In this document: piece by piece, positions 5,049-56,393 of the stretch
How positions within the stretch are numbered: position 1 is the first letter of the stretch
Layout of the letters: each line of letters begins with the position of its first letter
Source: Fragilariopsis cylindrus CCMP1102
Taxonomy: Eukaryota; Bacillariophyta; Bacillariophyceae; Bacillariales; Bacillariaceae
Reading direction: 5' to 3'
Length of the DNA: 64,000 bases
Assembly: GCA_900095095.1 (NCBI GenBank)
Contig: FMBT01000319.1
Span: 1-64,000, forward strand
Program-made: the position numbers and the translations under genes
Notes under the pieces: generated by a model
Told to the model about the DNA's origin: nothing
The model's database searches: none
The model's input: only the letters and a program-made list of their open reading frames with translations

Positions 5049-8000
5049 CTAGAATGTAGACGGCAAATTCTTTTGGGCAAGTTTTGTATGCGTTGTACTT
5101 TTAAGCCCCTTTAAAAGTGTGAGCTCATCAATGGCAAGGGAAGTCACTGGCCAAGCACCAGCGCTTCCGCCGTGTGATTGTCGGAACGTTATAGATGAGC
5201 TCTTTTTTGTTTGCAGCTCAACAAGATTCACCTAAGACGATATGCAAGTCAGAGTAATGAACGAATGGTTAAGTAATGCATGTCAGGAAAGAAAAACTCC
5301 GTAATTTGAGAACAACGACTTACCTCTCCGAGACGAGTCAAAAGTAGAATAGCTGTGGTACAAATATAGATAATTAGTGAGGAAAAATCAGGTCTAGAAT
5401 CACCAACACTACAGATATTATACGCATCACGCACACATTAGAACATACCTTCTCCAAAAGAGGGTGGGGGTAGATATTGATGGTCTCCTGACGCATTTGC
5501 AAGAGCTTCATAAGGATAAAATTGTATGAGAGAAACAGATTTCAGCTTTCAAACACCAAACAAGTTCAAATAAAAGACGACTTACCTTCCATTTTACCAA
5601 GAATATCTTTTATATCAAATCCTCCTATCTCTCTACCAGTTGTCCTGGATAGGGCAGCCAAAGAAACTAATAAAAGTGCTTCAAACGGTGCAGAAAATGA
5701 GACAGCAGCCGTTAAAGCAATATTGAACGAATCCAGGCTCGCTTTTTGCACGTCACCGATCCGAATTTTAGGGTATAAAACCGTTGCATGCCCCCCATCT
5801 TTTACTAGATTATCTTCAAATCTCTGAGTGACAAGTTCAGCAGCAGATCTGCAGATCTGGAATGCCTTTCGTATATCACCGCTCAACGCAGCTGTCTTTT
5901 TTGCGGCAAATAAAATGGCATCATCTTCAAAGAATTGATGATTCTAAGGGAAACAAAAAAGAATGAGTTGGTGGGAGTGTGCTGAATCACGTAGATTGAG
6001 CGAGTCTAATTTTGCAAAGATTTCTTACCGGCGATCCCTCCTTTATCTTCGATCTTAGAATAGATATTGTATCGTGAAGGCTATAAGCCTTGAAAACAAA
6101 TTTGTCTGTCCCTACACGAGACTGAACGCTCGGCATTAACTGATCCACCAAGTTCAACGTATTGGAGATGCCGACAACAACCAGTCGTCTACCGTTAGCC
6201 ACTTCAGCTGCACGTTTGGGCCAGTCAAAAAAATTGTATAGAACTGATTGCTTGTCCGTAACCAGGTAGTCGATTTCATCCAACAAGACGATTGTTATAC
6301 TGCTATCAGTAACGTCCAGTTGAGAAGATACAGAAGTGAAGTATGCTTCGAGCCATTCACACGCCCGTTCGTGTGGGCCAACATGTTTTTTTCCAGTCAA
6401 TGCCTCCCAAAATCTGATGTATACATCGAAAGGATGCCGCACCTCAATTCCGTTCAACGATATGAACCTAAACTTTGGTACAACCCCAGCCTCCTGCTCG
6501 TGTTGAAGCTTTGCAATCGCAGCGCGGACGCTTGCGGTTTTACCCCTTTAAGGGTGGACATCAGCGATCAGGAAAAGGAAAAAAAAAAGGGGGAGGGGGG
6601 GGTAAACAAGATTATCAAGTCAGTTTCAAGAAGAAGAAGAAAATCTTCTCGTCATCTATCATGGGGAACTTACACTCCAGGTGGTCCAGCAAGAAACAAT
6701 GAAGACTTAAAGCTCTCGTTCGTGGGATCTTTACTGAAGGCTGCTCTGAAAAAAGTAAGGAGATTAGATATCTCCTTTTCTCTGCCAACCAACAATGCCT
6801 CTCCACCTTCGTAGGCATTTTTTGATGCATCCTTGAGCGTTAGCTTACCAATTAAATTGATCATTGAGTCCTTCCAATTAGAAGAAATATTATCATATTC
6901 AGTGAATGCCTTTCTTGATGATGGCGATTTGTTGAGATACTTCGAGTGAATCAAGCCTCGCTTCTTTCTTCCAATAGCACCACTACAGGGGATTAACGAC
7001 CGTCGTTTCGTAGACCAAAATTTAGTGCAAACAAAATGTTGGGTATTTGGGTCCTCGTTGTCATCCTTCTTCATCTCTCTAAAATTCTCAACAAGTTTAG
7101 CGTAACCACCCAAAATAGCTGTACAGGCGTCCATTACTTGGCAATGGTCCGTTTCGTAGACTTCGACCAACTCTGAAGTTTCTTCTGCTGACGATGAAGC
7201 AACCATCGATATGTCCTGGCGCTCATAAAACCAACGAATTTCGACTTTTATTTTGGGCTTGCGATGATCTTTTGGATCTAAGTTATGCTCATGCCCAAGC
7301 TCAAGCTCAAGTTCTTCCTGTGATGTAAACTCTTCGAAGATGGAAATAATTTCAGCCAGAGCCCAGTTGCAATCGTATGGCAGACGTTTTGATCCTTCGA
7401 ATCTAGCCTGAATAGTGTCCCCCATCCGTACAATTTTTGGTGCCGATTTCTGTTCGTATCTGCCAGCTCCTGCATTGGTCTTGCACTGCGGTATTAAAGT
7501 CATTTCAGCATAGAAAGCCTTCAGTTGTGATGAATCGACTCGAAAGGGTTTCTTATGACACCAAGTTTCACCTGGATTGCGTCCACGGTGACTCGTATCT
7601 AGAGGATGGTCAGAAGAATTGATATGATGAGGTATCTCGACCTGATTTCGTACCAGCTGTCTGAACTTTTTAATCTCGTCAATAGTGTACATATTTGAGA
7701 GAGCTAAAACGCTTCCTTTCTCTGTGTTTAGAGATTTTGTTGAAGCCAAAAATTCAGACAGTGGAAGTTCTATCTGTCTCTCACTTAAGTCAGTTTCAGG
7801 ATAAGTTCCTGAGCAATAGAGTACAATCGGTCCCAGCAAATATTTTGATTCTACTAAGATCGTCACTGGGGGGCGACTATCAGCAATTTGTCTTCGTTTG
7901 CTTTTACCGTTGGCTTCTGTTACAAATTTCAAGCGCCGAATTTCAAATCGTAGACTATCGAGTTCAGAGTTTTCATTAAATATAGAAATAACCTGACCTG

Positions 8001-11000
8001 GGTAGTGCGGGACAGTAAAGGGATACAACTCCTCATTTTGCGAAGTGTCGAAATCTTGTATGGCGACAATATCTCCAACCTTCAATACCCAGGATCTACT
8101 TTCAGATCTATCGAAAATATCTGAGGCACAAAATAGAGACCACTGTGGAATTAGCGAAACTTCTGCGTAGAATAAGCGTCTAGATTGTAATGATTGTATT
8201 TGTTTCCCTAGGCGCACACAAGAACCCTCATTTGACATTTTTTTGGATGGAATCAATAGATCGCAAATGTTGCCTATGGTCAGCAAAAGGCTACTGTCAT
8301 TCTCCATTGCCTCACGTAGAGTCTTGTGCTGTTGCAGAAATTTCGATCGTTGGAATCCTCGTTGTCGTAGGCCATGTAGCCAACCTATAGGGGAAAGAGA
8401 CGACCAATAAATAGGCTGCAATCTTTGGAAGGATTTTAGATAAAGGAATTTGCATCTGCAAGACACTATATGGTTTTGTCTTTTCGAATGATTCTTTTCG
8501 TTACCTGAAGAGGTGTGATTTCCAAGAAATATCTCAACAATGCCGAGAAGGCATTTGGCATCCAAGTCTACCTTAAGCTCGTTCGATTCAAAGATTTCTT
8601 CGCGGTTCGTCTCCAAATGCAACGGCAGGAATTCTTTTGCCTCGTCCGAAAGCTCGGATGATTTGTAGAAGCGTCGAACCTCAACCTTGATATCATTTAC
8701 GCACTGTGTTGTCGACTGCCGAAAAATGCTCAGCACCTGACCGTAAGAATACGGTATTTTAAAGGGATACCAGGGATGCTTCATGCAATGCATGGACGTG
8801 TAATCTCCAGGAAGACTTGCACTCTGATCAAAATAACAAACAATGTCTCCTACCATGCATTCGAATGAATGTTTTTTCTTTCGTCTAATTTCAATTGTTG
8901 GTTCAACAAGGTACGGAATCGGAGTCACAACATCAAGGCACTTGTAAAAGTCCTGAACTCCACCATCCAGATTTATTGCAAGCAAATGCGACCCTAAAGT
9001 CACCCTGATATCGTCAGGATTGAATGGGATGCCTATTAATTTATTATTATTGTGTGCTACATCATTTCCTACGATACTCAAATCTTCATTGCAACTACTG
9101 TGATCTGGATCGACACTACGGTTTTTCGTCGCTTTAATATAGAATCGAGACAAAATCAATATCCATTCCTTATTCTGACGATTAGTTGGTTTTAACAATA
9201 AACCACGGGATAGACCCGATGGTATTTTTGAAAGATTGAAATCGTAGTTCGTCCAGTCCCTTGAAGGCTCGATTTCTTCGTCCCAGCAGAACTGAGTACA
9301 TAGACGAGGAATAAGAGGGAGACCAGTCACATCACTGGCTACCACACCCCATTTTTGCTTGTTCTCTGTAGAGGATAGAATGATCCGTCCAGGCAGTGCA
9401 GCCGTAATCGATAAATGCTCGAATACCTCTGTTTCAAAGACGACATGTGACTTGTTCAGGTGTTGAATACTAGCCTTGTGTTGCTTCAGTATCTCTTGAA
9501 ATCGACAAAACCATCTAATTTGCATCATCCATGCCCCAAGTTCCGTTTGATAAAGTGAAACAATCTGAGCCGCCAACCACTTTTCTTTGAAAGGAAAGCA
9601 GCCAACAGAACCATGTTTATGGCGAACGGGAATCACGTGTCCAACAGCTAGCGTCCAACGATTGTTGGATCCCAAACGAAATTGTTTGTGTAAATCTATC
9701 TTTTTCACGCTCAAGCATACAGCATAGACGAATTTATTCCCCCACTGTTCATACAATGTTCCGATCATTTTTGGAGCTAGATTTAAACAGTCGACTGTGC
9801 TTTCGTTGCTGGAATTGTTAGATGCCGTCGTCTTTGAACAAATGTTATTCATAAGCCACGAATTATACATCGACTTGACCAATTTGGGCATTTTCTCCAC
9901 AGCACGTTTCAGAGGTCCTGGTGGTAAAGTCTCCTTGAGAGGTGGCGACAGGTTCTGAAGAAAGCTGTGGTAGTTGTAACTCCAATCATTTATCCTCGTT
10001 ATCTTTCCTAGGGAACGCTCGAGGTGCTGGCAGAGCATTCGAACGATAGGGAAGCCATCACTTCCTCGTGTTTGTCTAGGTAACTTAGTAAATAGATCAA
10101 TGTCAGAGGTTAACTCGATATTTGCAGGTAAAACTTCTTTCACAGAACAATCACAATATTCGTAGGTTTCGACTAATCCATCTTTTTTATTCATAGATGT
10201 GAGCACATCAGTTCGACGATTACTTTGTAATTCTGGATACCGATAAAACCATTTTATGGATAATTTCCACGAATGGTCATCGTCATCGTTGTTGTCGTTT
10301 CTTTCTTTGAAAATATTTGTCACCTGTGCTAGACCAAAAGGAACCAAAAATGGAGCCCATGAATTAGTGGTGGATATGGAGTCTTCGTAATGAATCGCAA
10401 CGACACTACCGATATTAATTTGAAAGGACAAATATTGGTCGTCACCGTGACGATTATGGTCCAAACTTCCTATTTCATCTTTGTCCAGAAGAGAACCTAT
10501 AGCAGGATCTCCGCTGGGAATCGTCATTCTCAACTGTTTGAAATAGTCCGAGTGATTATCGGTATAAAAAGGTCCAGTCTTTAGCATGAAAGCAGAATCC
10601 ACATTCCAATTGTCAAGAGCATCTGCCACATTTGGCAATGCAATGCTGTCCCTGCCCGCGCTAGTTGCATCATCATGTTCGCTATCATCGCTATCGCAAT
10701 TACTATCGTCCCTCATTTTTTTGTAACGCGTCCCAATGGTTCCTGTCGGTTTCTTCCCTTGGACTTTCAGACCAGCCCCACGGGTGGCAATTGTCGTATC
10801 TGTTGAATGAGTGTCTCGAGTCGTGGTGGATGCCGCTCCGTCATCGTTGTCGCCTTCCATGTTCGTCTGTCTGCCATTCTTTGTATTAGCATTCTTTTTT
10901 CCAGATATCGTTGCTGTTGATGACTGCAGCCGTGACGATGCATTCTTCATCGAAGTTTTCTTGGTTTTTGATGGCTTTTGACTGATATTGGAAATTCGCT

Positions 11001-12351
11001 GCGACGATGATGGCTTCTTTGTGTCAGCACTAAATCGAAGCCGCTTACTACCAGTGGTCGTCTCATCAAGACTATCGGTACTGTTGCGGCCATTGTCCTT
11101 TTTTCGCTTTTTGGTTGCTACATCTTTGGTCATACATGATCCAGATTTCGTACTCTTCTTCGTGTTTATTGTTCGTTTTTTGGTAGTGATTATGGTGGTA
11201 TCATTTATTCGTTCTGTGCCTATGCCCTCTTCAATTATTTCTCGTCGTTGCTCTTCTTTGAGCAAAACAGCCTTATTGTAACGTTCTCGACGGCTTTGAC
11301 TCCATCCTCGCATCAATGCGTCACGCAACAAAGATATTTGTTGTTGATCAATATCTTTGTCTTTGGATGAAAGTGTTGACGGGGTGCCACTCTTTGTACC
11401 ATTACCACTACCGCCACCCCTACAAGAATCGATGGTACTACTGGCTTGGATCCATCCTTTCCACGCTTGTAGAAGCGGTTCTGGAATTTTATTAAGAAGA
11501 GCGACATTTTTAACTTCGTTGCTGCTCCCTTCTTCGTCTTCTATACTGGGAGGATTTAATTCAATCCATGCATCGGGATTAGGCTCGCTGACAAAACTAA
11601 TTTCAGCCACCGCTGTGCTAGACTCCTCCCCATTTCCCAAAGACCTTCGACTCTCCAATCGAATCTTGAGACAACAGAATTGGAGCGCGTACTGAGATTC
11701 TTCCCCTTCCTTTATTCCGTTACTCACAAAGTCCTGTTGGGTTCTGATCGTGATGGTTACCGGCAAGAGTATATCATATTCTTGGTCAATTGAACTCGTC
11801 GTGGGCAACATCGATACGATACCGTAATCACCAGGACGATTAATCAGAACATGCGGCATTTGGGATCCATTTATTTTTGTTTTGTCATTGTACGAACGGA
11901 AAGTGCTTTTTATTTTGGAAGACTTCATTTCCTCTTCATCCAAATCCATTGCCTTGTCGAGCCATTGGATATGGCATTCAAATCCATGACTCGGTGTGTG
12001 GCGAGTGATTCTTTTTCTCAAGGCGACAACGAGGCCTACCTTCCAATCTGGAGACTTTCCTGTGTAGTGGTTGGGTTCCCATGATTCAATCAGATCTCGC
12101 ACGTCTTCTTTCGAATTATTCTTGGCGACGGCTACGATATCACCCAAGTGAACTTTCCATCGAAATTTAGATCCGAAGTTCCTGGAATCGTGGTCAATGA
12201 TCAGACTGGAATAATAGAAAGTTCGTCCTCCTTGGTCAGAGGTGCTTGTATGGATGCTCGTGGAGCTTGGAATGATTCTGGGTCTTGACGACGGTGGATG
12301 GGGATTCATGGCATATTTCAAATACGAGTACTGAAAGAATGTATCGTCCAT
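5049..12351 (-). CDS. ORC1: Origin recognition complex subunit 1, giant form with six BAH-like modules
   Basis: AAA+ ATPase of the origin recognition complex, which marks replication origins and loads Cdc6/MCM in the nucleus. Six exons on the minus strand: 12351-6674, 6545-6029, 5943-5586, 5505-5449, 5352-5324 and 5231-5049. All junctions are GT-AG and frame-consistent, giving 2273 aa. The AAA+ part has Walker A GPPGVGKT (about residues 1888-1895, split by intron 1), Walker B IVLLDEID (about 1980), sensor 1 GISNTLN (about 2016) and sensor 2 LSGDIRKAF (about 2085), followed by a winged-helix-like C-terminus. The long N-terminal part holds six BAH-like modules starting near residues 68, 650, 904, 1167, 1427 and 1645. 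Each has a (V/M)GD-V/I strand, a GQV-SIF-like strand and an R(R/W)F(Y/C) strand. A basic, Ser/Thr-rich linker fills about 300-620. Usual ORC1 proteins have one BAH domain and 400-1000 aa. Intron 1 contains a purine-rich A/G tract on the + strand. Orc1 rather than Cdc6 is inferred from the N-terminal BAH modules. Confidence 0.9.
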
Positions 12352-13166: not shown

Positions 13167-15818
13167 TCAGCCTCTCTTGCTCCACAGACGTGGTCCCAAA
13201 CAAAAGCTTCCAGCCGCGGCTCCGGTCATCATGTCCAAGGCGATACCAGCGCACCCTGCACTAGTTACCCCAGGAGTATCTTCCTCGTAGCGAATATCGT
13301 CGTCATCAAACTTGGAAGAACTCCGACCGATCGGAGTCATGCCACACATGTCCATGTGTGGGACATCGTCGCTACTAAGTCGAGGAGGAGGACTTCCTGC
13401 ACGTCCCAGATCAGCCCTCGGAGGGCAGAAGTCGGGAAAAAGTTTGTCACTCTGAAAGGGGTTGGTAACACCACATGTGCCGGTCGTAGGTTCTGAACCA
13501 CCATCAGCTGATCGCATACGACGCCTTTTTCGGAATTGCATTTGCTGTGGGGAAGGAGGTGCTTTCGGGGAGGTGCCATCTGCACTGAAGTCGGCATTGC
13601 TAGCGTCCCTTGTGCTATCTGAAGCTCCTTCTTGAAGTTTCGGCAAAGATAGCGGCGATTCCGAACGATTATTGATGGGAGTGATATCTTCGCCTTCGCT
13701 GATACCATTCATTTCCGACACATCGCCAACACCTGGAGGACTCACGACATCCTTCTCTTTGAACAACTCCTTCTCTTTTAGGTACTTGTCTGTAGATGAT
13801 TCAGTTTCAGCAACAGATGCCGAAATAACTTCGGGAGGTTCAACTATGCTATCATTATCATTCGCTGCATCGCAATCTTCCGATTGCTTCGAAGTTGACT
13901 TCTTTTTTTTCTTATCAACTAAGGAACCAGCACTCTTTGTGGCCCTCACGTCTAGACCTTCTCTTAGCGCCTGTGAGGTCTTTGCCTCGGCCTTCGAGTC
14001 TCCAACTTCATACAATTCTCCTGTCTCTTCATCTTTTTTCAAGAATCGTCCACCACGCTTACGGATAATCAAAACAATGGTTCGTGCTAAAAGGGGCTTC
14101 TCCTTGCGTCGTGCCAAAAGATAAATTGGTTGGAACTCTTGCACCAATTTTCGGAAACGACGATTCCCCACCTGGGAATTAGTACCACCACCACGTCCAC
14201 AAAGGACGTCGAACGAGTTCACGTCTGCAGGGGATTCGCAAACAGGTTGATTTGAGGCTGGAGTAGAAGGCTCAAGAGGTGGATCACTGACATCAAAGTC
14301 CACTTCAGAGGCCGCCTTCGGAAGGACCATGCCTGACTTGTCATCTTTCTTGCCTTGATGATAATGGTGATTATATTGGTTGTGAGGATGGTAAGGGTAG
14401 TGGTGATGATATTGATCGTATTCGTCATAAGATCTCTGAGGAGGACGTCCGTAATGACCTGGATGGGGAGAATATGAATCGTAGTAACCATTGTTACTTC
14501 CTCCGGGGGAGTATCCGTACGAATACGGCGAGGATTCCGACGGATGTGGTGGATGATGAGAAGATGGAGATTGTCCGTAGTACGATGATGATGATCGATC
14601 TTGATCATAGTATCCTCCTGATCCGCCATGGTGTGAAGATGACGATGGTGGACCGTAAGGTGCATGATGACTATCGAAGCTAGTACCATGCTCGAAGGAT
14701 CCAGGGTATCCCGCACTTGCATAATGAGGTGGAGAAGGATCGCTGTGATGACCATGATGAGGTGGACCTCCTCCGTAATGAGTTGCATTAGGAGTCGTAG
14801 GGTGCGGAGAGCTGTGAGATACTTGAGACGAATACGGATGCTCTGAATCGAAGGAGGATTCAGCCACAACGGGAGGACGAGTCCTGTCAGGAGTCGGATA
14901 ACCCCAAGACCCATTGTTGGTGGTATTCTCGTCTCTACTTCTTTGAGCCACAGAGTAAGGTCCTTCTGGTCTCCTCATACCGTACCCTCGTACTCGAGGA
15001 GGAGAAGCCCCATTACTAGCGGCACGGCTACCAGGAGATGATGGCGGGTAATGATGGTAAGACGACGAGTTGGTTTGGGGAGGATACCGACTCCCACTGC
15101 TACCGTTACTACGAGGAGTCAAGGGTGGATGATGAGGAGGACCGTGGCTTGGATGATGACGTTGACTGTTTGCGTTAGGGTGGGAGGCGTGATGATCCTT
15201 GTGATTCGGTGAAATTACATTCAAATCCTCTGGTCGTCTCCCTCCAGCTGGAGGATATTGTACGTGAGGACTGTAATGAGAGGTAGGTGCAGTGCCGGGG
15301 AAGGAAGAAACATTGCTATCTTGTTGATCGAATGAACCAGAATTGACGTATGATACAGGATGATAGGGCTGTTGCCTGTAGTCGCCGTGAGGTGGAGCTG
15401 GATGCGCAGGTGCGTGTGCATGTGAATGTTGGCTTCCACCGTATCCGCCGTATGAACCCGAACCATGTCCTACTCCTCGAATAGCTCTCGGTCTCACAGG
15501 GTGTGGAGCTCGAAAAACATTCTGATCCTGGCTTGGACGAGATGGAGAATCTATTACGCTGGACTTTCCGCTTCCCTCTAGGACAACTTCAACCCCCTCA
15601 TCGTTATCGGAACTAATCTGACGCATCTGGTAGTCCTCCGGTGGGTGTTGTTTGGTTTCTCTGGATCCACCTTGGATGATTTCCTCGCTATCACCTCGGT
15701 CAGTACTGCCACTCGGAAAAATACGATTATCGTGATTTTCATTGCCAGATATTTTTAATGATAAAGCAGCATCAGACAGACCAGAAACCGCAGACGATGT
15801 TGCTAATTCAGCAGACAT
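13167..15818 (-). CDS. DUF6824-like domain protein with long disordered His/Pro/Ser-rich N-terminus
   Basis: Intronless 883-aa ORF starting with ATG at 15818. Residues 1 to about 525 are low-complexity and rich in His, Pro, Ser, Gly and Tyr, so probably disordered. Residues about 535-635 form the recognisable domain: DVLCGRGGGTNS near the start, GNRRFR, LLARRKEKPLLART in the middle, then RKRGGRFLKKDEETGELY and KTSQALREGL. This domain is common in diatoms and other stramenopiles and is catalogued as DUF6824; its biochemical role is unknown to me. A basic KKKKK segment follows, and the C-terminal 200 aa are again low-complexity. A nuclear or regulatory role would be a guess. The ORC1 start lies about 0.8 kb from its stop, on the same strand. 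Confidence 0.85.
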   Translation of the reverse strand: MSAELATSSAVSGLSDAALSLKISGNENHDNRIFPSGSTDRGDSEEIIQGGSRETKQHPPEDYQMRQISSDNDEGVEVVLEGSGKSSVIDSPSRPSQDQNVFRAPHPVRPRAIRGVGHGSGSYGGYGGSQHSHAHAPAHPAPPHGDYRQQPYHPVSYVNSGSFDQQDSNVSSFPGTAPTSHYSPHVQYPPAGGRRPEDLNVISPNHKDHHASHPNANSQRHHPSHGPPHHPPLTPRSNGSSGSRYPPQTNSSSYHHYPPSSPGSRAASNGASPPRVRGYGMRRPEGPYSVAQRSRDENTTNNGSWGYPTPDRTRPPVVAESSFDSEHPYSSQVSHSSPHPTTPNATHYGGGPPHHGHHSDPSPPHYASAGYPGSFEHGTSFDSHHAPYGPPSSSSHHGGSGGYYDQDRSSSSYYGQSPSSHHPPHPSESSPYSYGYSPGGSNNGYYDSYSPHPGHYGRPPQRSYDEYDQYHHHYPYHPHNQYNHHYHQGKKDDKSGMVLPKAASEVDFDVSDPPLEPSTPASNQPVCESPADVNSFDVLCGRGGGTNSQVGNRRFRKLVQEFQPIYLLARRKEKPLLARTIVLIIRKRGGRFLKKDEETGELYEVGDSKAEAKTSQALREGLDVRATKSAGSLVDKKKKKSTSKQSEDCDAANDNDSIVEPPEVISASVAETESSTDKYLKEKELFKEKDVVSPPGVGDVSEMNGISEGEDITPINNRSESPLSLPKLQEGASDSTRDASNADFSADGTSPKAPPSPQQMQFRKRRRMRSADGGSEPTTGTCGVTNPFQSDKLFPDFCPPRADLGRAGSPPPRLSSDDVPHMDMCGMTPIGRSSSKFDDDDIRYEEDTPGVTSAGCAGIALDMMTGAAAGSFCLGPRLWSKRG

Positions 15819-24689: not shown

Positions 24690-26650
24690 ATGACTGATGT
24701 AAACGCTGCTCGGCAGCGTGCCATGGTTGAATTTTTGGGTACATTTCCCACACTTTCTGGTGCCCCTCCATTGGAATTGTCAGATCTGAGTGATGGCGTG
24801 GCTCTTTTCGAAGTATTGTCCGAAATGTAAGTTGTGATGTACAATGTAGGAAGAAAAAGTAGAAAAAAGAGAGACGGAGAACGATATCGACAGTCACCAA
24901 TCGGTTTAAATTGTAACCGAACTTAAACCGTTGTTTGACTATTATCTGACACATCGTCTGTCATATCTGTTCCGGTTGTTGTGATCAATCTTCTACTAAT
25001 GAAAGTGCTCCCAATCACTTCGACCCCACCACAATTGCTCGTCAGTTGGGAGACAATTGGGCGCTCAAATCATCTAACCTCAGAAAACTCGTTCGCAATT
25101 TGCAGTACTACTACCATGAAGATCTTCAGAAAGATGCAGCAGAATCGTTTCGGGAAGTATCCTCTAATCTAAGTAAGATTTCACGAACAGGAGATACGCA
25201 TGCCATTGAACCTTTAGTTGAACTTGTCGCTGCGGCAGCTGTGACATGTCCTCAAAAAACAGAATTCGTAGGTCGAATCATGAGTATGTCTAGTGAGTCG
25301 CAAATTCAAATGAAAGGCATTATCGAATCGAGTTTGCAACGCATGGATGATTATGACGATACAGATGGAGATAACGATCACATCAACGACGAAGAGGATG
25401 ATCCTGAAATGATTTTCTCCGAAGATACAGGTGAACCAGGAGCAGGTCCATCCGCAATAGATGACGGTGGCGAATCATTATTCAATGCTGGCCATCTAAA
25501 ACAATCTTCCCCAATGGATGCCGATACAGAAGAATTAGAGCAATCACTCTTGGAAATAAAACGAGAATTGGCGACCCAGAAATCACTAATGAATGAAGTT
25601 AGAGAGGATGCCGAAAAGGCTCAATCCAAACTTCGTGCTTTGGTGGAAGATTTACAGGATCGTCTAGCCAAGCGCCAAGATGAACTTATCACTTCTGAAG
25701 AAGAATTGAAAGATGCGACAACAGAGCTTGATGCTCTAAAATCAAGAGTGGGTGAGCTGGAAGAAGAGAAAGCGCAGTTAGCCGATGAGCTGGATGTGGC
25801 GTCGGCGAAGGCAAATCAGTTGTATAAAGCAGAGGCAACAGTTATGGCATACAAGAGAAAGCTGGAAGGGGTCGGTGTTATCAACCAACAAATGACCGAT
25901 TTGGAAGATCAGGCAGCCGGCTATCTTCGTCAAATCATGGATTTGGAGGCGGAAGTTAAAAAGACCGCAACTCTTCAGAGACAAGTTGATTCACTTCAAA
26001 AGAAATTAAATGTCTCCGAAAATAACAAGATAGAAAGCACAGACTCTTTGCAAATTGCATCGGCAGAAATTACGAAGCTCAAAGATACACTTTTATCTGC
26101 AGAAAAGGCGAAAAAATTGTATATGGATGAATTGAAGGAACTTCGAGCCCAGCAAGACGTAGGTGAGGAATTGGTTGCAGTTGAAGGATTTGATGGGCAA
26201 GCACAAGTCTCGATGGCACAGAGAGAAAAAACTATGCGCCTTGAGATAGAGAACAATAGACTGAAAGCAGAGATAGATGCATTGAAAAAAGCTGCATCGA
26301 CTGGGGAAACAATTACCGCTTCTTCAGGGGCGACAGATTCTTCGCAAGATAAAATGGAGGCGCTTAAGGACGAACTTGATAAGAAAATCGCAGAAAACAA
26401 GAAGATCGTTAGTGATAAGGATAAGCTTGAGGCATATACAAAGAGAACTCTAGCGAAGTTTCAAGACAAATACTTGGTGGCTCTTCAAGAATGTAAAGCA
26501 AAGCTGAAAGAGAAACAAGATAAGATCGAAGTTTTGGAAAGCAGGAGTGCAACAGAAAAGACTTCGCAGAAGAGAGAAGAGCGGCTTCTATCGTCGACAA
26601 TTTTTGAGCTTGGGTTGTCTATAATGCAGAATAGATTGAAAGATAGGTAG
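24690..26650 (+). CDS. HOOK-domain coiled-coil protein (putative dynein/cargo adaptor)
   Basis: HOOK-family proteins link cargo or organelles to dynein and microtubules. Two exons: 24690-24826 and 25006-26650. The donor is GTAAGT, and a CTAAT branch-point-like sequence lies just before the acceptor AAAG, giving 593 aa. The N-terminal HOOK (calponin-like) domain covers about residues 1-150, including ELSDLSDGVALFEVLSE, HFDPTTIARQLGDNW and SSNLRKLVRNLQYYYHEDL. Residues from about 175 to 590 are a long Glu/Lys-rich heptad coiled coil. The long open stretch in exon 2 alone would lack the N-terminal helices. Whether it truly binds dynein is inferred from the family. Confidence 0.85.
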
Positions 26651-48789: not shown

Positions 48790-51700
48790 ATGAATCAAGA
48801 AGAAGAAAAAGAAGGAACAGCTAATAATCCACTACCCACAACAGGAAGTGATAATAGCGATAGTCCATCTTATTCTTACTTGTCGGCAGCCAGCCTATCG
48901 CCAATACCCGAAGCGTCGCTCGACAGCTCTACTCCTCCAAGAGAAGATCCAAGTCTACTGACACCTTTGCGTCAAAGTACTACCTCTCCAAGGTCCGCGA
49001 AACCACTCAAGAGAAAGCAGCAATATCTATCGACGAGAGGAGAAGCAGAACCTGAAGCGAAACTAGATCATAACAACAGCGCTCTAAGCGGCTCTAGTTC
49101 CGGCGATTCAACAGATTCTGCTATACCCAGCTTGGATTCATATCTAGCAGTACATCAGATCAAATCTATTGTCTCGAAAGAAACAACAAACGACCCAGAA
49201 GAGAGTATCGAAGGAAACGACGATAACAACAAAGGAACAAGTCCACCTGATCCTTCAGATCCTCAAGACCCATCCGATCCACCTGACGATCCTCCTAAGA
49301 CTACAATGCCGTCCACTCGAACAACACCCACGGTAGCGACAACTGCTATAGTTCAAAAAGATCTAGAACATCTGTTAGTAGATATCATGGCACTTAAGCT
49401 CACGGATTATGTCTCGTTAGCACTTCACCGTCAAGGATGTCGTTCCTTTGAAGATTTCTGTGTATTAGATGAAATTGACACAGACACTCTTCAATACGAT
49501 ACGATAGATGGTATTTCTAATACGATTAAAGCAGAGCCATGTAATTCGACAGACAGGAAGAAGATCAAGCGTGCTGTTGCCTACTGCGCATTTCGTGAAA
49601 GTGATGGATCTGATGCTGAGAGACGTAATCCAACAGCATGGGTTGCAGCTGACTACTCTACATGGTGTAGAACTGGATATCCTGCCTGGCTTATCACACT
49701 CTCGAATGCAGCGTCAGTAACCTCATCTTCAGGAACGAGTGGTAGCTCAGCTGGTACTATCTTTTTACCTAAAAGCCAATTAGAAAAGGACCAAGATGCA
49801 TTGCTTGTTAGCTGGAATAGAAGCCCAAGAGATATTGCTAAATATCCACATATCAAGGATGATGTAGGTTACGGAGAATGGTTTATCAAGATGAAACGGC
49901 AATTGAAGGCTGATCGATTATGGCGGGTAGCAGCACCTAATTGGACAATTGCTAAGAATTGCAGTACAGGATCCGATACAACTTTAGCCGAACTTCAGCT
50001 AAACTATTTCGAACAGATCCTAGCTGCAGTTCTTCAGAATCCCGAAGGTAAAGGTTTACTAACCACACATCCAGAAGATTCACTTTATGTATGGAAAAAG
50101 CATGAGGAACATCAGACGTCATCTGATTCTGCAATGCAAGGTACACATCTCTTGATGAATAAGATAATGTCTTTAACGATTACTAAGTTCGATACAAGAT
50201 ACGAATTTCTCATTTCGTTCCAAGAATGTGCTGACAAGTATGACAAGATCGCAAGAAAGCCTCTCGACGAAGAGTTTAAGATTATGCTTCTTCAAAAAGC
50301 TACTAATCCTGATGTCGCTCTTTCCAATAGTTGGGTACAAAAGACAGAAGCAAAGAGAGCCAATGCGTTACCTGGTGCACCTACTACTGTTTCATATACG
50401 GAATACCTAAAGTTCCTAATGCAACAATCAAAGGTACACGATTTGAACACTCCATTCAAACGGCCAACTCGCCATGCGCATCAAGCTGAATCATTTTACA
50501 ATGATAATGACAACGGCGTTATCGACGGAGAAGACGATGGTACTAGTGATTTCATTGCAAATATGTCCATTTCTGGTGAAACTATGAGCAATGAACAAAC
50601 GGTACTCGCCTTCGCCGCTTATCAACGCAACCGTCCGCCACCTCGTCCTCGAGATCCAGAAGCTGATATCGACCAAGCAATCTACAGCAAGTGTTCTAGG
50701 GAATTTCGCATTGCATGGAGCAAGGAGCCAACGGATATCAAGAAGCAGATTCTTAAACAGAATAACAACAAATCTCCTAAGCAAGGTGCTAAGAAGAATA
50801 GTGAATTAGCTGTTTACATGGGTCAGTCTGAAGGCTACGAAACAGATACATCTGCATATTCAGAAGCCACGTACGGATACGACGCTGATGACAATGACGA
50901 TCAATCTGTTATTGAAGCTACCGAGCTAGTTGCAAATGCAGCAAGAAGACGCCCCAATGGAATCCTCAAGAAGAAAGATCTTCCAAAGAAGACCGATCTA
51001 CCAATTGCTGATCCACGAAGAATGCTGTCCAATAGATCTACACCATTAATCGGAAAAGATGGAAATATCACTGGACATCTCACGTATACAGCCTCTATGG
51101 CAGTAATCCGTCACCGATTCGATCAAGTCGATTCTTCGCAAGCAGTTTCCATCGAAGATAACTATGTCATATCCGTCAATGCAACCAAATTCTTTGATGA
51201 ACCGCTTGCATTAATGGACGGAGGCGCTAATGGTGGAATCGCAGGCAGCGATATGAGAGTTATGTCATACAACTCGGACGGACGACGTGTTAATATTGGC
51301 ATTGCAGGTGATCATCAAATGACGGGCAAGAAACTCGGTACCTTTTGCGCTGTGATCGAAACTCGATTCGGACGTGTTCTAGCAATATTCCATCAATATG
51401 CTCATGTACCCGAACAAAGACGATCCATCCATTCAAAATGCCAATTTCAAGCGCATCACAACCTAGTTGGTGATACAGCGACAGCCTATGGCGGTCTTCA
51501 ACGCATCGATACAGCAGATGGGTATCAACTACCTTTAACTATTCGAGCAGGATTACCATACATCCGTCAAACGTATCCCACAGATGATGATATGAACCTT
51601 CCACAAGTACAATTTACTTCACCTTCTCAATGGGATCCCAATCTTAATGATGATAACCGTACATCAGAAGAAATGATACGAACATTTCCTCCTATTCCTA

Positions 51701-54700
51701 AAGAAGCCATCGATAACTTCTATGATGAATATGGAAGAACTAACTACGAATATTTACAAAAGCGTGTAAATAAAACCGTTGAGATTGAACATGACGATGA
51801 TGACAGTGTTGGTACTATGCCCGGTTTACAAGATCGAGCTCGAGAAGATTCCTCAAGTGATGATGATAGTGTTGTGGAACATATCAGACCATCTACCTCA
51901 ATTGAATGGAATGTTCCAATCGATGACTCCAATGGGGAGAAGTTCGTATGTCCTCGAATTCAACAACAAAAGATTAAACGTACCACCAAGCGAAAAGCAA
52001 GACGAATTAAAGTTGCTGCAGCAAGAAAGAAATTAATTGACAATACTCCATTTGCTACAGACGCTAATGAACCAATTATCCCCTTTATTGATAACATGGG
52101 CAATAATGAGGAATCATCTACAATGGTAGACGGTATAAAATTCTTTCCGGCAGAACGTAATTCGACTTGCACCGACATTATTGAGGACAATAATATCGAA
52201 GATTTGAACGATCAAATATTTTATGACTCCACTGAAGTACTTCATGATCCTAACATCTTTGTTGACACTGTATCCGACACAGCGTATCTCGATGACATGT
52301 CGACGCCTCGACCTACGGAGCACGAGTACTGGGAAGACTTTCTATCAAATGAAGTCACTCAACGTCTTATTTATCAAGGCATCATTGATTCCTGTGAACA
52401 ATATGACATCAACGCTAACGATATAGCTTCTGTAATGACGCCTCTCAAGCCAAGATATTCGGTACCTACACCGATTGACTACGAATCCAAACGGAAATAT
52501 TTTGCACATCTACCGGCAGATATTATTAGAAATACCTTTAAGAATACAACGCAAAATATGAAGCTGCCTCCATCTACGAACCTGCACAAAATGTTCAAGT
52601 CACCTAATCCTTCTGCAAACCTCAAACGTCGAGACGAAGCTGATGCAACTGACATGATCTATTCAAATACACCTGCTATAAATGGTGGTGAGAAATGTGC
52701 TCATATCTTCGTTGGTAAAAAGTCAAAATTGACTGATGCATACAAGGTTAAAAATGGTTCTTCTGAAGAATTTCTAGAAAGCCTACAAGATCGAGTCCGT
52801 TATCGAGGATGTCCTACAGGATTAGAAGCAGATAATGCTCCTATGTACCGCGGTTGGAAAAACTCACGATATCTCCGAGATATATGTATTTCCCAGTGGC
52901 AGTGTGAATCGAAATATCAGCATCAAAATTACGCTGAAAATCGATGGCAAACTGTCAAGCGGTACACTAACCGAGTCATGGATCGCAGCGGCTGCCCTCC
53001 TTACATTTGGTTTCTAGCATTATCGTATGTCATCTTCTGCCTCAATCATTGTGTTGATCCTATGCTCGGAGATGGAACCAAAAGTCCTTTGCAAATCGCG
53101 ACATTCCAAATGACCGATATTAGTCCTCTGCTGTACTTTTATTTTTGGGAACCTGTTTATTTTCTTCTCGATGAAAAAGAACGAAAGTTTCCAGGAAAAT
53201 CAAAAGAATGCAGAGGCCATTGGGTAGGAGTATCAGAACACATTGGAAACAAGATGACCTACAAAATCATTACAGATGATACTGGAGAAGAAATTTGCCG
53301 ATCTGCCATACGTACTGCACGGGACACTACGATGAAGAATCTACGCGAAGATCCAATCACGATTGATGATAACCTACTCAACGTAGAAGATATCATTTCT
53401 CCAGCAGAAGAAATTGCAAATATCAAGTTAAAAGAAGTAACCTCGGGAAATACTTTTAACAATTTTGATACTACAGCAATATTAAAGAACATCGACGACC
53501 AACTACAAGAGGAACTGAAAGTAAAAGCAAAAGCTAAAGCTCATCAACTACAAGAAGAAGCGGATGACTACTTTCTTGATTCAAATGAACAGCAGACTGG
53601 TCATTTTAACACAGCACCTCCTGTTGTCCCCGTTAAATCGTCGCTGCCCAAACGTTCATCTACTACCAAGTCGAAACATGTAAAACCTAAGAAGTTACGC
53701 GACTTACATCCAAAAGATCCAAGTAGAGGAAGAGGAACACGTAGTAGTAAACGTTTGCGAGATATGAACATTCATGCAATGAATGCACTCATGACAAACG
53801 AAGTACAACCTGAACAAGACCTTCCGTTATCAACTAGTCGCCACCAAGAACATGTTACGGATATCAACCATCCCACCAACCCACGGCCATCGCCTCTAAC
53901 CCGTCAACAGGTTCTGAAAAATCGTGATACGCATATCACCGAACAAGAAGATCAATTTGTCTATCTACGAGAAAATGGGGAGAATGAAAATCCTATATGG
54001 CAAGAATTTGAGTTTCCTCTCGAAGACGAAAATGGTAACGCGGTAATCGGAGAAGATGGCAAACCGATGGTAATAATAGCACCCCCACCAAGTGACCTAG
54101 TAGGAAGAGTATTTCTAACCAAACCAGACGAGAGAGGTGAAGTTAATCGAGCAAGAGTTGTAGAACTTATCAAGAACTTCGACGGCGAAGTAGAGAAGAA
54201 TCAAGATCTAATCAGGTTCAAGCTTAACTATGATCACAGTTCCCAAGAAGATATCATGTCTTACAACGAGATCCTAGATTACATCGAAAGAGAAGAAAAC
54301 AATGAAGACGGACATCATTGGAAGTTTCGTACTATATTAGGACACGTGCATACTCCTGTGGGACACAAGGAAAGAATGGGGAGTGACTATAATGTCAAGA
54401 CGGCTTGGGAAACTGGAGCAGTTTCGGTTGAACCATTGGACTTCCTTGCTAAGGATATCCCAGTTGATCTTGCTATATATGCCAAGAAACACGACCTACT
54501 TGAGTTAGAGGGATGGAAACGCTTTAAAAGAATTGCTAACCGAGATCAGCATATTCGACGACTTGTGAAACAAGCCAAGCTACGTTCCTTCCGTGTTACT
54601 CCGAAGTACAAGTATGGATTCTCTATACCACGCAATTACAAGAAGCCCTTGAATTTGACGAAAGAAACGGAAACCATAAATGGCAAGAAGCAAATGTACT

Positions 54701-54717
54701 GGAACATGCGCAACTAA
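48790..54717 (+). CDS. Copia gag-protease-integrase polyprotein (runs into a frameshift at the start of RT)
   Basis: 1975-aa open frame from the ATG at 48790. About residues 1-780 are gag-like: an acidic Ser/Thr/Pro-rich N-terminus, then a helical region, with no CCHC zinc knuckle visible. The aspartic protease site is LMDGGANGG near residue 808. The integrase core has DMIYSN (about 1290), LEADNAPM (about 1345) and QNYAENRW (about 1380), the D-D-E residues, followed by a GHWVGVSEHIGNKMTYKI block. A charged linker rich in Lys/Glu follows. The frame shifts near 54,640 just at the conserved start of RT, so the last 25 residues are out-of-frame and stop at 54717. Confidence 0.92.
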   Translation: MNQEEEKEGTANNPLPTTGSDNSDSPSYSYLSAASLSPIPEASLDSSTPPREDPSLLTPLRQSTTSPRSAKPLKRKQQYLSTRGEAEPEAKLDHNNSALSGSSSGDSTDSAIPSLDSYLAVHQIKSIVSKETTNDPEESIEGNDDNNKGTSPPDPSDPQDPSDPPDDPPKTTMPSTRTTPTVATTAIVQKDLEHLLVDIMALKLTDYVSLALHRQGCRSFEDFCVLDEIDTDTLQYDTIDGISNTIKAEPCNSTDRKKIKRAVAYCAFRESDGSDAERRNPTAWVAADYSTWCRTGYPAWLITLSNAASVTSSSGTSGSSAGTIFLPKSQLEKDQDALLVSWNRSPRDIAKYPHIKDDVGYGEWFIKMKRQLKADRLWRVAAPNWTIAKNCSTGSDTTLAELQLNYFEQILAAVLQNPEGKGLLTTHPEDSLYVWKKHEEHQTSSDSAMQGTHLLMNKIMSLTITKFDTRYEFLISFQECADKYDKIARKPLDEEFKIMLLQKATNPDVALSNSWVQKTEAKRANALPGAPTTVSYTEYLKFLMQQSKVHDLNTPFKRPTRHAHQAESFYNDNDNGVIDGEDDGTSDFIANMSISGETMSNEQTVLAFAAYQRNRPPPRPRDPEADIDQAIYSKCSREFRIAWSKEPTDIKKQILKQNNNKSPKQGAKKNSELAVYMGQSEGYETDTSAYSEATYGYDADDNDDQSVIEATELVANAARRRPNGILKKKDLPKKTDLPIADPRRMLSNRSTPLIGKDGNITGHLTYTASMAVIRHRFDQVDSSQAVSIEDNYVISVNATKFFDEPLALMDGGANGGIAGSDMRVMSYNSDGRRVNIGIAGDHQMTGKKLGTFCAVIETRFGRVLAIFHQYAHVPEQRRSIHSKCQFQAHHNLVGDTATAYGGLQRIDTADGYQLPLTIRAGLPYIRQTYPTDDDMNLPQVQFTSPSQWDPNLNDDNRTSEEMIRTFPPIPKEAIDNFYDEYGRTNYEYLQKRVNKTVEIEHDDDDSVGTMPGLQDRAREDSSSDDDSVVEHIRPSTSIEWNVPIDDSNGEKFVCPRIQQQKIKRTTKRKARRIKVAAARKKLIDNTPFATDANEPIIPFIDNMGNNEESSTMVDGIKFFPAERNSTCTDIIEDNNIEDLNDQIFYDSTEVLHDPNIFVDTVSDTAYLDDMSTPRPTEHEYWEDFLSNEVTQRLIYQGIIDSCEQYDINANDIASVMTPLKPRYSVPTPIDYESKRKYFAHLPADIIRNTFKNTTQNMKLPPSTNLHKMFKSPNPSANLKRRDEADATDMIYSNTPAINGGEKCAHIFVGKKSKLTDAYKVKNGSSEEFLESLQDRVRYRGCPTGLEADNAPMYRGWKNSRYLRDICISQWQCESKYQHQNYAENRWQTVKRYTNRVMDRSGCPPYIWFLALSYVIFCLNHCVDPMLGDGTKSPLQIATFQMTDISPLLYFYFWEPVYFLLDEKERKFPGKSKECRGHWVGVSEHIGNKMTYKIITDDTGEEICRSAIRTARDTTMKNLREDPITIDDNLLNVEDIISPAEEIANIKLKEVTSGNTFNNFDTTAILKNIDDQLQEELKVKAKAKAHQLQEEADDYFLDSNEQQTGHFNTAPPVVPVKSSLPKRSSTTKSKHVKPKKLRDLHPKDPSRGRGTRSSKRLRDMNIHAMNALMTNEVQPEQDLPLSTSRHQEHVTDINHPTNPRPSPLTRQQVLKNRDTHITEQEDQFVYLRENGENENPIWQEFEFPLEDENGNAVIGEDGKPMVIIAPPPSDLVGRVFLTKPDERGEVNRARVVELIKNFDGEVEKNQDLIRFKLNYDHSSQEDIMSYNEILDYIEREENNEDGHHWKFRTILGHVHTPVGHKERMGSDYNVKTAWETGAVSVEPLDFLAKDIPVDLAIYAKKHDLLELEGWKRFKRIANRDQHIRRLVKQAKLRSFRVTPKYKYGFSIPRNYKKPLNLTKETETINGKKQMYWNMRN

Positions 54718-56393
54718 CCGACTATGCAGTATTCAAGAATAAGGGTAAATTCAACGAAGCAAAGATACCAGAAGGATATCGAAAGATTCAGGTTCATACT
54801 ATCTTTGATGTGAAACACGATGGCAGACACAAGGCTCGAGTTGTAGCTAATGGTAATCTAACGGATGTACCTCTTGAATCTGTTTACTCAGGTGTTGTTT
54901 CATTACGTGGCTTACGTACATGCATATTCTTAGGAGAGCTGAACAACATGACTCCATGGGCTACTGATATTGGAAATGCTTATCTTGAAGCAAAGACCAC
55001 AGAAAAGGTATGTATCAAAGCAGGGCCAGAATTTGGGGAGCTACAAGGAAACCTTCTTATCATCGATAAGGCTCTTTACGGACTACGACTTAGCGGAAAA
55101 GCTTTCAACATTTTGCTATCTGACTGTCTACGAGACCTAGGATTCTTTCCATCTAAAGCCGAGTCAAGTATTTTCATGAGAAAATGTCCCACAAGAGACG
55201 TGTACGAATATGTGGCCACATATGTCGATGACCTATGCATTATTATGGAGAACCCGTTAGAGTTCCTCGAGCAGCTGTCGTCAGCACCGTACAACTTCAA
55301 ACTGAAAGGTTCAGGAGAAGTTAACTTCCACTTAGGATGTGGATTTGAAAGAGACTCTGATGGAGTTCTATGTATGAACCCAGGTCGGTACGTCGATAAG
55401 ATGGAAGATGCCTACAAGCAAGTCTTCAAGGAATTGCCTAAACAGAAGTACAGATCGCCGTTAGTAAAAGGAGACCATCCAGAGCTAGATACAACCGCAT
55501 TCCTTGACCAAGACGGAATTGAGATATATCAATCATTAATAGGAGCTATGCAATGGGCAATCTCTATAGGACGATGGGATATTCAATCGGCAGTAATGAC
55601 CTTATCAAGTTTCAGAGCTCAACCAAGAAAAGGACATCTTGAAAGAATCAAACGTATCTACGGATTCTTATGCAAGTTCAGGCATTTCAAACTACGCTTT
55701 CGAGTTGATGAACCAGATTATTCCGGTATTCCACCAATGCCACCTTACGATTGGAGCCATTCCGTATATGGAAACCCAACTGAAGACATCCCTAAAGATG
55801 CACCGCCTCCACTGGGAAAACGAATCGTTTTGACCCATTACTTCGATGCAAATCTAATGCATGACGTACTCTCCGGAAAGGCAGTTACAGGCGTAGTTCA
55901 TTTCTACAACAAGACTCCAGTCGATTGGTATTCCAAGAAACAATCTACTACAGAGACTGCAACATACGGATCGGAATTCCTAGCATGCCGAACTTGTTTC
56001 GAACAGATCATTGATCACCGACAGTATCTAAGATACCTTGGAGTACCAGTGGGTGATGAAGACTACGCATGGGGAGATAATGATGCTATGATTAATAGTG
56101 CAACCATACCTGACGCAAAGTTACATAAACGACATAACATTCTGTCATTTCACTTTGTTAGAAGCTTAATTGCAAGTGGTTTCATTAATCTGCAACATAT
56201 CAAATCGGAAAGTAATATCGCGGATATACTTACGAAACATTGGGGTTACCAAAGTACTTACGAGTTGATCCGTCCAATCTTTCATTTTGGAGGTAACACG
56301 GCCGCGCTGTATTTTGATGATACATTAGAAGTCGATCGCTACATTACTCAATCAGAGTTAGATGAAATCGTTACGATCAATGGGGAGTGTTAA
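54642..56393 (+). CDS. Copia reverse transcriptase / RNase H (downstream frame)
   Basis: Continuation of the polyprotein in another frame; its first in-frame ATG is at 54810, but RT homology begins near 54,642. RT motifs: ARVVANGN, TDIGNAYLEA (first catalytic Asp), KALYGLRLSGKAFN and TYVDDLC (catalytic DD near 55,220). RNase H motifs: HYFDANLMHD, TETATYGSEFLACRT and WGDNDAMINSA. The stop overlaps the first bases of the right LTR (56388). No slippery heptamer is visible at the junction, so I favour a one-base loss over programmed frameshifting. As it stands, this copy could not make RT from one frame. Confidence 0.92.
   Translation, partial: EALEFDERNGNHKWQEANVLEHAQLTDYAVFKNKGKFNEAKIPEGYRKIQVHTIFDVKHDGRHKARVVANGNLTDVPLESVYSGVVSLRGLRTCIFLGELNNMTPWATDIGNAYLEAKTTEKVCIKAGPEFGELQGNLLIIDKALYGLRLSGKAFNILLSDCLRDLGFFPSKAESSIFMRKCPTRDVYEYVATYVDDLCIIMENPLEFLEQLSSAPYNFKLKGSGEVNFHLGCGFERDSDGVLCMNPGRYVDKMEDAYKQVFKELPKQKYRSPLVKGDHPELDTTAFLDQDGIEIYQSLIGAMQWAISIGRWDIQSAVMTLSSFRAQPRKGHLERIKRIYGFLCKFRHFKLRFRVDEPDYSGIPPMPPYDWSHSVYGNPTEDIPKDAPPPLGKRIVLTHYFDANLMHDVLSGKAVTGVVHFYNKTPVDWYSKKQSTTETATYGSEFLACRTCFEQIIDHRQYLRYLGVPVGDEDYAWGDNDAMINSATIPDAKLHKRHNILSFHFVRSLIASGFINLQHIKSESNIADILTKHWGYQSTYELIRPIFHFGGNTAALYFDDTLEVDRYITQSELDEIVTINGEC

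Follow-up and report, generated by a model that had tools for sequence, protein, structure and literature searches.

A single, apparently intact gene of the diatom Fragilariopsis cylindrus encodes an ORC1 that carries an array of BAH modules in the same chain as its AAA+ motor, as supported by the gene model described below. The usual ORC1, which takes part in starting DNA replication, has one chromatin-binding BAH domain. Here there are five clear ones (M2 to M6), each well supported as part of the set, and a sixth, diverged BAH (M1) is probable at the usual N-terminal place. The order along the chain is BAH (M1, probable), basic linker, five BAH domains, AAA+ and winged helix. The gene lies on the minus strand of the window (the whole stretch of 64,000 nucleotides that was analysed), and its model was drawn from the genomic letters of one assembly of one species.

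Gene model and identity of the product

Exon 1 (6674..12351, minus strand, residues 1–1892) was delimited by the open reading frame, the splice site and codon usage. It contains 1892 codons in a single uninterrupted frame, which begins with an ATG at 12351, is preceded by an in-frame stop two codons 5′ of this ATG, and reaches the Walker A motif. The end of the exon at 6674 splits this motif between GPPGV and GKT, where the donor GTAAGT follows, so that the exon limits proposed by the sequence-only reading turned out to be exact. Codon usage was scored in windows of 60 codons, with the other frames of the 64-kb window plus exon 2 as the training set. The own frame of exon 1 was the best of six frames in 28 of the 31 windows, thus giving no sign of a gene boundary within the exon. 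The continuous coding frame into Walker A and the codon-usage result both uphold the earlier claim of a single gene.

The remaining exons are also on the minus strand. Exon 2 (6029..6545) encodes the AAA+ core with Walker B and sensor 1, and matches human ORC1 with an E-value of 6e-26 and CDC6 with about 1e-9 to 2e-9. Exon 3 (5586..5943) covers sensor 2 (SGDIRKA) and the lid and runs into the winged helix, to which exon 4 (5449..5505) and exon 5 (5324..5352) also belong; these three were assigned from the gene model and the alignment. Exon 6 (5049..5231), placed by the gene model, supplies the C-terminus and the stop codon. All five introns are GT-AG and 80–128 bases long. The spliced product has 2273 amino acids, in agreement with the approximately 2270 expected beforehand.

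When the last 393 residues of the spliced product are compared with human proteins, ORC1 aligns with E of 4.2e-42 (query residues 5–343) and CDC6 with 1.9e-23. By these scores, the protein is closer to ORC1 than to CDC6. The product contains GPPGVGKT at residue 1889, LLDEID at 1980, SNT at 2020 and SGDIRKA at 2086, which we take to be Walker A, Walker B, sensor 1 and sensor 2, respectively. The ORC1 identity suggested at the outset is borne out by the scores and the motifs together. Exon 2 reaches 32 bits with the Pfam AAA model, whose cut-off is 21.2. Beyond the lid, the alignment to human ORC1 goes on into the winged helix, as far as query residue 343 of 393; in the Pfam scan of the exons, the winged-helix models found no match and the lid models stayed below cut-off. 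A search of the own genome with the AAA exon recovers, besides the exon, a single weak match (E 0.012), which lies on another contig.

The neighbourhood of the gene was also inspected. An 883-aa frame adjoining ORC1 (13167–15818, minus strand) is histidine- and proline-rich and contains DUF6824 (98.1 bits), which is typical of diatoms. A HOOK-family gene is located at 25046–26650 on the plus strand (HOOK coiled coil, 59.1 bits), and frames of 1975 and 527 codons at 48790–56393 (plus strand) have, from their translation by eye, the look of a copia-type retroelement.

The BAH modules and the linker

The six modules, all on the minus strand, are M1 (11812..12222, residues 44–180), M2 (10081..10548, residues 602–757), M3 (9370..9738, residues 872–994), M4 (8512..8952, residues 1134–1280), M5 (7798..8175, residues 1393–1518) and M6 (7081..7518, residues 1612–1757). 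Their GD-V/I strands are found at residues 67, 645, 901, 1165, 1423 and 1641, and the module starts first proposed (68, 650, 904, 1167, 1427 and 1645) were right to within about 5 residues of these strands.

The Pfam BAH profile (PF01426), the check suggested along with the sequence-only reading, gives the exon-1 protein as a whole 54.5 bits (E 1.3e-14, four stretches; cut-off 30.8), which bears out the BAH assignment at that level. With matches admitted up to E 10, the Pfam scan of exon 1 shows no family other than BAH, and no PHD; NCBIfam gave no match. Taken singly, M2, M3 and M6 obtain 13.2, 19.4 and 22.5 bits, each below the cut-off, and M1, M4 and M5 have no BAH match. Larger pieces score 29.0 bits (M2+M3) and 20.9 bits (M5+M6), and M4+M5 none. 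Leave-one-out profiles, each built from the other five modules, yield 31.7 bits for M2, 19.4 for M3, 35.8 for M4, 33.4 for M5, 13.8 for M6 and 8.8 for M1; with 200 shuffles, the top score of each of the six tests lay between 2.1 and 6.2 bits. M4 and M5 are linked to the BAH set by similarity between modules, as in the blastp values given below.

M1 is the most diverged. Its 8.8 bits compare with 2.7 for the best of its shuffles and, for the M1-free profile, with 3.4 for the best of the 284 other frames in the window. The same score corresponds to E 2.0 in a search of 20,000 proteins, so M1 would not be detectable in a blind search. The hhalign comparison of the M2–M6 profile with M1 gives 14.8% probability with E 0.0018, and the sole Pfam match of M1 alone is GOLD_2 (13.5 bits, where 28.4 is the cut-off). 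Its best blastp E-value to any other module is 0.002.

In the PDB, phmmer with exon 1 retrieved nothing at E up to 10. A profile of the M2–M6 cores found no BAH there, only two unrelated matches (E 0.86 and 0.89), and a profile from the longer six-module alignment found only DNMT1/MET1 chains (E 1.1). Viral contigs scanned with exon 1 and exon 2 contained no relative. Structure prediction, which was also among the checks suggested, covered two of the six modules, M4 and M1, and gave BAH-like models of low confidence (pLDDT 49 and 44). Within that coverage, neither the models nor the continuous frame of exon 1 refuted the sequence-only reading. Both match mostly BAH structures, with the BAH domains of Sir3, yeast Orc1 and mouse ORC1 among the top rows. 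In Foldseek, the best matches of the M4 model are yeast Orc1 and Sir3 BAH with E 0.0073 (none at E ≤ 0.001), the BAH matches have a TM-score of ≤0.30 by model length, and rows past the 15th are mostly unrelated. The matches include, according to their titles, nucleosome-bound Sir3 and Orc1 BAH, as well as the yeast Orc1p-Sir1p complex. The alignment behind the M1 model included the other modules. The Foldseek list of this model is headed by a gasdermin-like protein and Pif1 (probability ≤0.18); the BAH entries lower down reach a probability of 0.91, though with E-values no better than 0.32.

Between modules, the blastp E-values are 1e-7 (M4–M5), 1.5e-7 (M2–M3), 5e-6 (M2–M4) and 9e-6 (M5–M6). 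The modules are 15–23% identical to M4 over the alignment. We infer that M2–M6 arose through internal tandem duplication, which placed the array beside the motor; which module derived from which, they are too diverged to tell. The earlier proposal that M5 and M6 are a duplicate pair holds in that M5 is the best partner of M6, but the best partner of M5 is M4, and a plain step from M5 to M6 does not describe the history. The motif FYAExxLIPQ put forward for this pair is indeed present at residues 1394 (FYAEVSLIPQ) and 1613 (FYAEMTLIPQ). It was rejected as a private mark of M5 and M6, since an aromatic strand is seen by eye at this position in all six modules; the stretch looks like the first BAH strand.

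The segments that follow M4 and M6 are weakly alike (6832–8510, minus strand, E 0.001) and are possibly part of a duplicated unit. The remaining post-BAH pairs shown have E of 1.6 or worse, and a larger common repeat unit that includes these segments is not established. In its own genome M6 matches only itself. M2 recovers, apart from its own position, a portion of M3 and two weak candidates (E 0.13 and 3.7), which were discarded as module copies on the grounds that their frames look low-complexity or unrelated by eye.

The linker (10627..11739, minus strand, residues 205–575), identified by composition, is basic and poor in aromatic residues. The whole stretch of about 370 residues between M1 and M2 has a pI of 9.24 with 3.0% aromatics, and residues 300–575 have a pI of 9.93 with 1.8% FWY. 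Judged only by its composition, it is probably disordered. Metazoan ORC1 is described as having its BAH domain N-terminal to a basic disordered region, followed by AAA+ and winged helix (PMC11077064). Given the same order and the basic, aromatic-poor linker here, M1 and the linker may most simply be read as the ancestral, ordinary ORC1 N-terminus, and M2–M6 as the added array.

Cages, ligands and competing readings

The cage positions of the modules were aligned by hand, and the first of them may be off by one. In this alignment, the triads are W/W/D in M1, F672/W701/Y703 in M2, W925/W947/C949 in M3, Y1203/R1227/Y1229 in M4, H1449/R1473/K1475 in M5 and W1663/W1707/Y1709 in M6. By this placement, a full three-residue cage appears only in M2 and M6; it is incomplete in M1, M3, M4 and M5, and both M4 and M5 have Arg in place of the cage Trp. 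For comparison, the BAHD1 cage consists of Y645, W667 and Y669, and reader BAH domains are reported to follow the pattern of an aromatic residue plus W-x-Y (PMC4791424). The cage of PBRM1 BAH1 is formed by H976, W997 and Y999, and that of BAH2 is atypical, with weaker binding (PMC10425938). At most two modules, M2 and M6, look like classical methyl-lysine readers.

The sequence-only reading suggested that the array could mean multivalent reading of chromatin at origins; taken as multivalent reading of H4 lysine methylation, this is not supported as stated. The BAH domain of mammalian ORC1 reads H4K20me2 (PMC8093215). For Phaeodactylum tricornutum, it was reported that neither mass spectrometry nor western blot detected H4K20me, with the data not shown in that source, and acetylation was seen at H4K20 (PMC4504042). 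In contrast, the brown alga Ectocarpus, a stramenopile, is described as having H4K20me3 at transposons (PMC7784034), so it is not safe to assume that the mark is absent from the present species. Unlike in mammals, H4K20me2 is probably not what the array binds. That several modules read histone lysine methylation, H4K20me in particular, is improbable in our estimation: the full cages of M2 and M6, the mammalian precedent and the Ectocarpus mark speak for it, but only two of the six cages are complete, the Phaeodactylum report points the other way, and the BAH domains of Sir3 and PBRM1 are reported to bind nucleosomes or unmodified tails (PMC10425938).

We consider it about an even chance that the heterogeneous BAH array tethers ORC to chromatin by avidity. 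The array would give ORC avidity for nucleosomes, with several singly weak BAH-histone or BAH-nucleosome contacts acting together with the basic linker. Pockets for lysine, possibly methyl-lysine, would be most plausible in M2 and M6, and the remaining modules would be degenerate or serve contacts with the nucleosome surface or with proteins. The array and the linker would keep ORC on the chosen chromatin while the AAA+ motor helps to load MCM. A precedent that favours this is PBRM1 BAH2, a weak BAH with an atypical cage beside a normal one; however, the tandem BAHs of PBRM1 bind histone tails and yet its overall chromatin targeting is reported to be independent of them, which speaks against BAH-array tethering as a rule (PMC10425938). 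A wider form of the same idea is more doubtful, and we offer it tentatively: the lineage may have rebuilt ORC1 as a six-BAH chromatin-gripping platform, in which origin choice would depend on the state of several nucleosomes taken together, rather than on H4K20me2 or DNA sequence. With four degenerate cages, an array that makes no histone contact could be equally compatible with the data. The main rival of the avidity reading is rather unlikely but substantial, namely that the array is mainly a protein–protein scaffold, which binds replication or silencing proteins or itself and keeps ORC within a large complex, with no histone reading involved. The incomplete cages, two with Arg for Trp, the yeast Orc1p-Sir1p complex among the matches of the M4 model, and the action of yeast ORC1 BAH as a Sir1 scaffold (PMC4791424) all fit such a role, but the cages of M2 and M6 are complete in the alignment, and Sir3 and Orc1 BAH bound to nucleosomes are among the nearest solved structures in Foldseek.

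Two further readings concern the gene itself. If the array were a separate protein and a short ORC1 were transcribed from an internal start, that ORC1, reduced to AAA+ and winged helix, would be like the ORC1s without BAH that are described (PMC7058166). We regard this as very unlikely, given the uninterrupted frame into Walker A, the codon-usage result and the end of exon 1 within the Walker A sequence itself. An artefact of the assembly or the gene model (missed introns, a haplotype join) is hardly to be expected. There is one assembly, and in-frame introns are possible in the low-complexity linker; however, modules so diverged from M4 are not assembly repeats, the introns are GT-AG in five cases of five, and the match of the spliced product to human ORC1 extends over most of the C-terminal part.

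Relation to known systems

Where no DNA consensus guides it, the way ORC locates origins is still an open question; in animals and plants, single BAH domains explain only part of it. With BAH domains multiplied beside its motor, such an ORC1 would offer a natural experiment on how chromatin guides the choice of origins, set in a group where one diatom is reported without detected H4K20me (PMC4504042). The differing cages make the modules separately comparable as to which binds what and with what effect on replication start sites. A literature search on ORC1 in diatoms, BAH architecture and tandem BAH, over the titles and abstract openings among the matches listed and with diatom protein databases outside its scope, found no multi-BAH ORC1. 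The array may already be visible, unremarked, in those databases.

DNMT1 has two BAH domains, and yeast Orc1 and Sir3 have a single BAH each. The present array resembles PBRM1 and DNMT1 in that the BAHs stand in tandem, with one atypical cage in PBRM1 (PMC10425938) and DNMT1/MET1 reached by the six-module PDB profile, but those proteins have two BAHs each and are not ORC subunits. Yeast Orc1 and Sir3 BAH, solved nucleosome-bound according to the titles, are the best Foldseek matches of the low-confidence M4 model. Section 11 of PMC7058166 describes ORC1 as having a conserved AAA+ part, a patchy BAH and a PHD in Chloroplastida, and that section does not mention a multi-BAH form. The Chloroplastida protein (BAH-PHD) is alike in that an extra reader element was added near the BAH (PMC7058166), but there it is a PHD, whereas here BAH copies were added and no PHD matches. 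Metazoan ORC1 shares the N-terminal BAH, basic linker, AAA+ and winged helix in the same order (PMC11077064), with an AAA+/winged-helix part to which the diatom protein aligns; in contrast to it, the diatom ORC1 has five extra BAH domains between the linker and AAA+ in its 2273 amino acids.
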